This document shows, one piece after another, positions 23,863 to 26,394 of a stretch of 64,000 bases of DNA (positions are counted from its first letter, which is position 1; every line of letters starts with the position of its first letter). Below the pieces are notes generated by a model. The model did no database searches. It saw only the letters and a program-made list of their open reading frames with translations, and was not told the origin of the DNA. Source of the DNA: an uncultured Parvularculaceae bacterium (GTDB lineage Bacteria > Pseudomonadota > Alphaproteobacteria > Caulobacterales > Parvularculaceae). The stretch lies in NCBI GenBank assembly GCA_947259375.1, contig CAMYLZ010000009.1, forward strand, positions 62,001 to 126,000. Reading direction: 5' to 3'. The position numbers and the translations under genes were made by a program.

Positions 23863-24270
23863 ATGAGTTTCAAGGAAAAAAGCGCGTGGATCGTGCTGGC
23901 GGCGATGCTCTGGATTTTCGGCGGCTATGCATGGGCGCTTTACCAGGCTGGCAGTTTCGGCGCCGGAACGACGGGTATGATGTTCGGTACGATCATTGGA
24001 TTCATTATCGTGGTTGTCGTCGGGCATATCGTCGTGGCGATTTTCTCAGCCAAGCCTGGCGACGATGCTGAAGACGAACGTGACCGCTTGATCGAGCTCA
24101 AGGCCGACAGCCTTTCGGGGTATGTTTTGGGTGCAGCCGCATTGGGGGCGCTCGCGCTGGCGCTGTTTGAGGGCGCGTATCTCATCGCCAATGTTCTATT
24201 TCTGGGGCTGGCCGCATCTGAAATCATCAAGAATGGCTGGCAAGTCGCGCTTTATCGGCGAGGGGCGTGA
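23863..24270 (+). CDS. Four-helix membrane protein paired with an XRE regulator
   Basis: 135 residues with about four transmembrane segments (10-30, 40-62, 85-103 and 108-122) and a charged cytoplasmic loop [17 protein letters not shown] between the second and third. This layout (two helices, a DERxxxIxxKA loop, two helices) is that of small DUF2178-like membrane proteins usually encoded next to a short XRE-type repressor, as here. GGGAGGCAGGTT precedes the ATG. Its stop overlaps a GTG of the regulator frame, indicating coupling. Function of the family is unknown. Confidence 0.8.
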
Positions 24271-24278
24271 CCGGCCTC

Positions 24279-24533
24279 ATGGCGAAAACGCCCATCAGCA
24301 ACAATATCAGGACTTTGCGTTTTCATCACGATGAAATGACGCAAAGCGAGCTTGCAGAGCGCATCGGGGTGACGCGCCAGACCATTGCTGCGATCGAAAA
24401 GGGGAAATATGCGCCGTCTTTAGAGGCGGCGTTTCGCATCGCCGCCGTTTTCGGCGTCCCATTTGACGAGGCATTCCGCTATGAACGCGATGAAGATGCG
24501 CAATTCATGAAGCGGTTGAAAAAGGATGGTTGA
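24279..24533 (+). CDS. XRE-family helix-turn-helix transcriptional regulator
   Basis: 84 residues, essentially a lone HTH_3 domain: [20 protein letters not shown], then [24 protein letters not shown]. This is the YgzD/YozG type of short regulator that controls the adjacent membrane-protein gene. Start is uncertain: GTG at 24267 overlaps the upstream stop (GTGA), but GAGGGG is too close to it; from the ATG at 24279 the spacing is 13. Probably autoregulates the pair. Confidence 0.88.
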
Positions 24534-24573: not shown

Positions 24574-26394
24574 ATGGGTATGATGGCCGACACGACAACA
24601 AAAGCGGAGAGCGAGGCTGCGGGCGCCTATCAGGTGCTGGCGCGCAAATACCGCCCGCAACGATTTGAAGATTTGATCGGCCATGGTCCCATGGTGCGCA
24701 CGCTGAAAAACGCATTTGCTGCGGATCGCATTGCGCATGCCTATATCCTCACCGGGGTGCGCGGCGTCGGCAAGACGACGACCGCGCGCATTCTGGCGCG
24801 GGCCCTCAATTATGTGGGCGTTGACGGCGCAGATAACGGCCCGCAGATCGAGATGGCCGAAGAAGGCCGGCACTGCCGCGCCATCGCTGAATCGCGCCAC
24901 CCGGACGTTTTGGAAATGGACGCCGCCTCGCGTACTGGCGTCGGCGATATTCGCGAATTGATCGAGGGCGTGCGCTATGCGCCGGTCGAAGCGCGCTTCA
25001 AGGTCTATATCATCGACGAAGTGCACATGCTGTCGACGGCCGCATTCAACGCTTTGTTGAAGACGCTCGAAGAACCGCCGCCGCATGTGAAATTCATTTT
25101 CGCGACGACGGAAATTCGCAAGCTTCCCGTGACGGTCCTGTCGCGCTGCCAGCGTTTCGATCTGCGCCGCATCGATCCTGAAACCTTGACTGCGCATCTT
25201 GAGCAAATCGCTGAAAAGGAAGGCGTGACGATCGAGCATGATGGGCTCTGGATGGTCGCCCGCGCCGCCGAAGGCTCGGTGCGCGACGCGCTGTCAATTC
25301 TCGATCAGGCGATCGTCCAGCATGGCGGCAAGGGCGAGGACGCGGTGACGGCCGAAGAAATCCGCGACATGCTCGGGCTTGCCGATCGCTCTTCGGTCTG
25401 GGCGCTGCTTGATGCGGCGATGAAGGGCGACGCCAAGACTGCGCTTGAGAGCTTTCGCTCGCAATATGACGCCGGCGCGGAACCGGCGCAGATCCTGCGC
25501 GATTTGCTTGACCTCACCCATTTGCTGACCCGGATCAAGGCGGCGGGTCCGGCCGCGGCGGCGCACGGCCCGGCGGGCGAGGCCGATGCGGAGCGCGCGC
25601 GCAACATGGCCGACGGGCTCGAAATGAATGCGCTGACGCGCACATGGTCGTTGTTGATGAAGGGCCTTGGCGAGACGCAGGTCGCGCCGGACGCCGCTGC
25701 GGCGGGCGAAATGGCGCTGATCCGGCTCGCCTTCGCGGCGGATCTGCCGACCCCGGATGAGGCTTTACGCGCCTTAAAAAAAAATAGTTCCGGCGCCATA
25801 GGCGCGGGAGCCGCAGGTCAGACCGCATCCTCGCCCGCACCGGTGAGCGCGCAAAAAACACCGCCTAGGGAAGAAACGGCGCGCGTCATTGCCATGCCGG
25901 CGCCGCGCCCGCGCAAGGCGGAAACGCCGCCGGCGCTGCGCAATTTCGATGATGTGGCGCGCCTTGCCGGCCGCATGCGAGACGCCAAGTTGCGGACCGA
26001 GCTTGAATCTTACGTCCATGTGGTCTCGTTCAGTGACGGCAGGGTAGAATTGCGCCTTCATGATCAGGCGCCCAAAGACCTCGCCAACCGGCTGACCTTG
26101 CGCCTCAAGGAATGGACCGGCAGGGCGTGGATCGTCTCGGTTACCGCCGAGGAAAACGGCGCGGAAACCCTGCGCGACGCCCGCACCCGCGAGGTGATGG
26201 CCCATCCGATGGTCAAACATGCGCTTGAACTCTTTCCCGGGGCGCAAGTCACCGCTATTCGGGAGACCGAATTGGCGCCCGCACCTGATGAATTGAGTGA
26301 TGATGCGGATGAAGCGGGCGAGGCGGCGGACGACGCCGAGAGGAATGCGCCCATGGCGGCAAGCGCCGGGCGAAAGGAAACAGGTAACGCGTGA
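24574..26394 (+). CDS. dnaX: DNA polymerase III subunit tau (and predicted gamma)
   Basis: 606-residue clamp-loader ATPase of the replisome. Walker A is [10 protein letters not shown] (61-70), Walker B is IIDEVHML (near 146-153), and the SRC sensor occurs in TVLSRCQRF. The zinc-module region holds only one Cys (C101), as I recall for other alphaproteobacteria. A Pro/Ala-rich linker (about 405-450) precedes the tau-specific C-terminal domain. An A9 run at 25776-25784 is followed by TAG in the -1 frame. Ribosomal -1 slipping at A AAA AAA, or transcripts with one extra A, would end after Leu401-Lys-Lys-Lys and give a 404-residue gamma form. ATGs at codons 3 and 4 are alternative starts. The stop overlaps ybaB (TGATG). 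Confidence 0.96.
25776..25787 (+). promoter_or_regulatory. Predicted dnaX slippage/frameshift site
   Basis: Nine consecutive A read as TTA AAA AAA AAT in the tau frame and as AAA AAA AAA TAG one base back. A purine-rich, SD-like GGATGAGG lies about 14 bases upstream, and a small hairpin (GCGCC, ATA, GGCGC) begins seven bases after the TAG. The A9 length equals that reported for the slippage site of Thermus dnaX. Confidence 0.65.

Follow-up and report, generated by a model that had tools for sequence, protein, structure and literature searches.

A genus-wide A9 run in dnaX of Hyphococcus/Marinicaulis is probably a programmed slippage site yielding a gamma-like clamp-loader subunit

The window, by which we mean the whole 64,000-nucleotide stretch analysed (C9:62001-126000 of a 3.2-Mb, 32-contig genome), carries a dnaX gene whose zero frame encodes a 606-residue tau. 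Pfam matches on DnaX comprise a delta-prime-like ATPase, the lid, domain III and the tau C-terminal DUF3646. Two overlapping ORFs precede dnaX, one membrane-protein-like (23863-24270) and one small and helix-turn-helix-like (24267-24533), both assigned by eye, and the ORFs that follow dnaX are, we presume, YbaB-like and then RecR-like. The features of the gene are as follows.

24574-26394, plus strand: dnaX ORF, 606-residue tau in the zero frame (PF13177, PF22608, PF12169, PF12362)
25345-25776, plus strand: domain III, PF12169, residues 258-401 (E 4.5e-47), end of the predicted gamma
25755-25762, plus strand: SD-like GGATGAGG, in which ATGAGG, 13 nt upstream of the run, agrees with AGGAGG at 5/6 positions (duplex -5.6 kcal/mol)
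25776-25784, plus strand: A9 slippery run, exactly A9 and in the same frame in 26/26 congeneric dnaX
25785-25787, plus strand: stop TAG of the -1 frame, where an A10 message would also end (26/26 congeners have a -1 stop within 3 codons)
25787-25811, plus strand: local hairpin with a two-part stem of ten base pairs (32 nt: -18.3 kcal/mol, z -2.21, p 0.023)
25799-25801, plus strand: stop TAG of the +1 frame, where A8 and A11 messages would end (25/26 congeners have a +1 stop within 16 codons)
25939-26259, plus strand: tau C-terminal domain, PF12362/DUF3646, residues 456-562 (E 3.1e-30), missing from the predicted gamma

The run consists of the third base of Leu401, the codons AAA AAA and the first two bases of Asn404, and is read TTA AAA AAA AAT AGT in the zero frame and AAA AAA AAA TAG in the -1 frame. 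Leu401, where the run begins, is the last residue of the domain III match. An earlier note on this DNA had described an A9 with a directly adjoining -1 TAG inside dnaX, at the junction of domain III and the tau tail, and had proposed a 404-residue product after a -1 slip or one added A. The coordinates confirm the run, its stop and its place at the domain boundary, and the predicted product of a -1 shift or an A10 message is indeed 404 residues long, ending in LKKK, with a computed mass of 43.8 kDa. Messages with A8 and A11 are predicted to give 408 and 409 residues, both ending at the +1-frame TAG, and an A7 message 403 residues, while A9 and A12 messages would give 606 and 607. The run by itself is weak evidence, because the genome holds A9 or longer at six distinct places (both strands, 3.2 Mb). 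The sole A10 of the genome lies at G000:C5:66311-66320, where a brief inspection showed open frames of 119 and 113 codons but no convincing long gene. Viral contigs, searched for exact matches to the site with its TAG, gave 29 hits.

Conservation within the genus gives the run its weight. NCBI taxonomy places Marinicaulis in Hyphococcus (Parvularculaceae, Parvularculales, Alphaproteobacteria), and we took genus membership from the label given by the genome search; one member locus (G009, L012) is identical over 3,638 bases to JAJFGE010000134.1, from the MAG Marinicaulis sp. OFTM318. A dnaX match was found in 26/28 genomes of the genus, two having none at E 1e-60, and the 26 genes have diverged to a median pairwise nucleotide identity of 75.7% (lowest 68.0%, best BLAST stretch). 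In all 26 the run is exactly A9 in the same codon phase, with all nine positions invariant. The Leu codon at its start is TTA in 20 genes and CTA in 6, although A-ending codons make up 6% of Leu codons elsewhere in these ORFs, and the two Lys codons are AAA in 52/52 cases, against 59% elsewhere in the same ORFs. Beside the run this constraint vanishes: codon 404 ends in T in 14 genes, in C in 11 and in G in 1, the third base varies at each of the 14 codons upstream, and in one congener residue 404 is Lys (AAG) with the A9 still kept. Since the 26 genes are related and their counts are not independent trials, we took the number of changes from a protein tree built without the site. On it, run and stop persisted through at least 11 changes in the bases that carry the -1 stop, at least 4 switches between TTA and CTA at the first base of the Leu codon and at least 6 changes in the third base of codon 404. 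The presence of A9 in 26/26 congeneric dnaX is thus not due to chance, and the genus-wide conservation of run, frame and -1 stop strongly supports a gene built for gamma as well as tau. Of the earlier note's statement that this bacterium makes both subunits, the design of the gene is well founded, and production itself is predicted.

Outside the genus but within the family, the run is missing. None of the 30 dnaX from other Parvularculaceae genera carries it, and their A runs reach 6 at most (of 34 genomes, 4 gave no dnaX match at E 1e-60). One of the 30 (L128) has a -1 stop no more than 3 codons from the homologous place. Relatives lacking the run, which the earlier note had named as counterevidence, therefore exist in the rest of the family (0/30 with the run) but not inside the genus (26/26). 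The contrast marks the site as a genus-level trait, one that arose at the genus root or was lost elsewhere.

Stops in the other frames are close throughout the genus. All 26 congeners have a -1 stop within 3 codons, for which the same ORFs give a background of 10.0%. The +1 stop is at most 16 codons away in 25/26 and 29 codons away in L014, against a background of 51.5%; the background for both jointly is 5.2%. We also resampled synonymous codons downstream of the run with the protein held fixed. In the window's gene, where the -1 and +1 stops lie 1 and 6 codons past the run, the joint p is 0.015. Over the 26 genes the -1 stop has a median p of 0.24 and the +1 stop one of 0.095; in the joint test the median is 0.034, with 20 genes below 0.1, 6 above 0.1 and 5 above 0.2. 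The value of 0.24 indicates that the -1 stop alone is largely dictated by the amino acids after the run, and each stop taken alone is only modestly closer than synonymous resampling predicts in the 26 congeners.

Taken together, these patterns suggest that dnaX of Hyphococcus/Marinicaulis probably contains a selected, programmed slippage site, mainly transcriptional, that yields a gamma-like subunit. RNA polymerase would slip on the A9 (T9 on the template), producing mRNAs with 8, 10, 11 or other numbers of A. Messages with A9 and A12 would be translated to full-length tau, and the others would end after about 404-409 residues, at the -1-frame stop 1 codon beyond the run or the +1-frame stop 6 codons beyond it. 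The short product, with the ATPase part and domain III but not the tau tail, may then join the clamp loader. The arrangement resembles that of Thermus thermophilus, whose dnaX encodes tau in a single ORF, has an A9 closely followed by stops in the two other frames and yields a short product that lacks the C-terminal part (PMC5009743, PMC1088944). It differs in that the window's site is alphaproteobacterial and genus-restricted within its family, and in that slippage here is predicted from sequence; in addition, a single tRNA-Lys was found in the window's genome, whereas Thermus has two.

The main alternative is ribosomal -1 frameshifting of the E. coli type at A_AAA_AAA, with the A9 of the mRNA intact and gamma ending at the -1 TAG, which we regard as rather unlikely. 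The likeness to E. coli dnaX is real: a -1 stop stands just behind an A-rich site after domain III (in 26/26 congeners), and tRNA-Lys(UUU) is the only tRNA-Lys among the 41 tRNA hits of the genome, an E. coli-like set that leaves ribosomal -1 shifting open. The scan covered 30 loci, 8 stretches and 1 place in the window, with the other two hits inside scanned loci; two tRNA-Lys as in Thermus were not found among the 41 hits, a list that may be incomplete because no hit is named Ile. One of the hits scanned is a tRNA-Leu. A_AAA_AAG with a -1 stop 2-3 codons behind also stands near the same place in dnaX of L244, L245, L247 and a Bartonella (L092), and these are candidate ribosomal frameshift sites elsewhere in the class. 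The window's gene further has a hairpin beginning 2 nt behind the run and an SD-like stretch upstream, which the earlier note had likened to the stimulators of E. coli. Both are present, the hairpin being longer than first described, but neither is supported as conserved. The same folding test over 60 nt finds no excess stability in the window's gene (z +1.45, p 0.92, synonymous resampling), and across the genus the hairpin reaches p<0.05 in 2/26 genes, with a mean z of 0.09. The SD-like stretch sits within conserved Asp-Glu-Ala codons and is probably mostly their by-product; a 5/6 match to AGGAGG occurs in 16/26 congeneric genes. These results speak against hairpin and SD-like stretch as conserved stimulators.

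The earlier note had allowed both the ribosomal and the transcriptional route, and several features favor the transcriptional one. Codon 403 is never AAG in the genus (0/26), leaving A_AAA_AAA as the only heptamer, although A_AAA_AAG is reported to be much more shift-prone in E. coli (PMC5009743). All nine A positions are kept, yet one ribosomal heptamer needs seven, and two would be superfluous. Run lengths in the class jump to 9-10, with few 7s or 8s (below). Stops stand in both other frames, a signature reported for Thermus (PMC5009743, PMC1088944), and close +1 stops would be useless to a -1 shift. Lastly, there is no conserved hairpin. Against transcriptional slippage stand the single tRNA-Lys(UUU), the significant 3' hairpin and SD-like stretch in the window's own genome, the absence of the run from the other family genera and the joint-stop p above 0.1 in 6/26 genes.

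It is very improbable that any gamma arises by partial proteolysis through ClpXP with the A run incidental. Caulobacter, also an alphaproteobacterium, makes gamma in this way (PMC5422525, PMC5009743), by ClpXP processing of tau; a Gly-rich stretch in the linker of domains III and IV is reported to stop this processing (PMC6677533). The two cases share a class and a similar presumed end product, but the Caulobacter route acts on protein and needs the Gly-rich stretch, which DnaX of this genus lacks: 0/26 congeners reach 5 Gly in 8 residues of the domain III-IV linker, with at most 3 in any 8. An incidental A9 would also leave the invariant rare Leu codons and the kept -1 stops unexplained. Linker Gly is 5.6% in the genus against 11.5% in other family genera, a weak contrast because merely 5/30 of the latter reach 5 in 8. 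Loss of a Gly tract is likewise only suggestive as a signal of replacement, because AT-rich genes without A runs are Gly-poor too (1/20 reach 5 in 8). The Gly-poor linker fits a change in the route by which gamma is made, though it does not show one.

The remaining two explanations are hardly credible. Homopolymer tracts of A9 are mutable in general, and a phase-variable switch at the DNA level could turn tau off and on; yet 26/26 genomes are tau-on with exactly A9, and neither A8 nor A10 occurs. Chance or a pure coding constraint on Leu-Lys-Lys-Asn, to which the six genomic places with A9 or longer might lend support, is in our view already refuted by the synonymous choices, which are fixed precisely along the run and vary next to it. 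It also conflicts with the retention of A9 where residue 404 is Lys and with the 30 other-genus proteins of the family, which do not keep the Lys-Lys pair at the homologous place.

Runs of A9 or A10 recur at the same place in dnaX across the class. Our class set holds 258 distinct dnaX, an uneven draw of 26 from the genus and 232 others: 30 from other family genera, 16 from other families of the order, 78 from a search of named genomes (80 best of 593) and the rest from a class draw. Left out were L002 and L003 (weaker matches in the window's genome, taken as other AAA proteins) and the duplicates L033 (identical to L012) and L095 (identical to L236). Among the 232 non-genus genes the longest A run at the site is 6 in 13, 7 in 4, 8 in 2, 9 in 10, 10 in 8 and 11 or more in none, such that 18/232 carry A9 or A10; one of these is an A10 among the 16 genes from other families of the order (L154). 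Below a GC of 0.55, 18/66 non-genus genes have a run of 9 or 10 where 0.11 are expected from stretches elsewhere in the same ORFs, and at or above 0.55 the count is 0/166. In the class-wide draw, 179/190 genomes had dnaX at the threshold and 150/179 were examined (4 of the 150 cut near the site, 1 with no A in the stretch; the histogram holds 149 genes); A9 or A10 occurs in 17/50 low-GC genes and 1/99 high-GC genes, the one high-GC gene being the window's.

The slippery dnaX of the genome searches are spread over 13 families (group codes) besides the window's. A quick FastTree of 257/258 genes, which includes 25/26 genus members (the missing one, by length, is L143), implies at least 11 changes of slippery state; support is low for some slippery clades, and several AT-rich slippery lineages that lie close on the tree may share a common origin. 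In 15/18 of the non-genus A9/A10 genes tau lies in the zero frame, and all 15 have stops in both other frames within 16 codons. Elsewhere in these ORFs stops lie less close (combined p 1.6e-6). Against synonymous resampling, single-frame stops are not closer (combined p 0.23 and 0.68), and the two together give 0.0014; the combined values of the resampling test are too small, because they treat related species as independent. L089 and L230 have tandem runs, an A9 and then an A10 about 20 codons on, with other-frame stops close to both; we used the run with the closer stops in the analyses of GC class and of stop distance against the rest of the ORFs.

The other three genes (L250, L254 and L255) show a reversed order. 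Their zero frame stops 3-6 codons behind the A9/A10 run, and the -1 frame continues for 126, 142 and 169 codons, respectively, tails that we read from their translations as probable tau tails. Slippage would then be needed for tau. This layout corresponds to the two-ORF ("reversed") poly-A dnaX type of a GeneTack survey (PMC3711429). The window's gene shares with that type a poly-A run in dnaX but differs from it in that tau is the zero-frame product and no zero-frame stop follows the run.

Poly-A transcriptional slippage in dnaX is already known from Thermus, as are two-ORF poly-A dnaX genes (PMC3711429), and the class-wide recurrence of A9/A10 is the more novel part of our results than the window's own case. 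We found no paper on poly-A slippage in alphaproteobacterial dnaX among titles, abstract beginnings and selected passages, a search whose scope took in few subscription papers. One review holds that most other bacteria have no kept frameshift signature in dnaX (PMC3290774), and production of a short clamp-loader subunit by bacteria other than Thermus, Caulobacter and the relatives of E. coli is unsettled.

A broader reading, which we offer tentatively and at somewhat less than even confidence, is that a gamma-type DnaX is widely selected in Alphaproteobacteria while the route to it has been swapped repeatedly among proteolysis, RNA polymerase slippage and ribosomal frameshifting, Hyphococcus having gained slippage at its root. 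Proteolysis would be represented by Caulobacter, slippage by the A9/A10 genes of Hyphococcus and of 13 further family codes in the class draw, which include genes with tandem runs and genes in which tau and gamma exchange roles, and ribosomal frameshifting by the A_AAA_AAG forms; in Hyphococcus the Gly-poor linker would stand in place of the Caulobacter-type proteolytic stop. A strictly kept, genus-wide site in a GC-rich alphaproteobacterium, together with similar sites in other families of a class whose model member relies on proteolysis to make gamma, argues for selection on gamma itself and for several molecular routes to it. The site offers simple reporters and natural comparisons with which selection for gamma may be tested.
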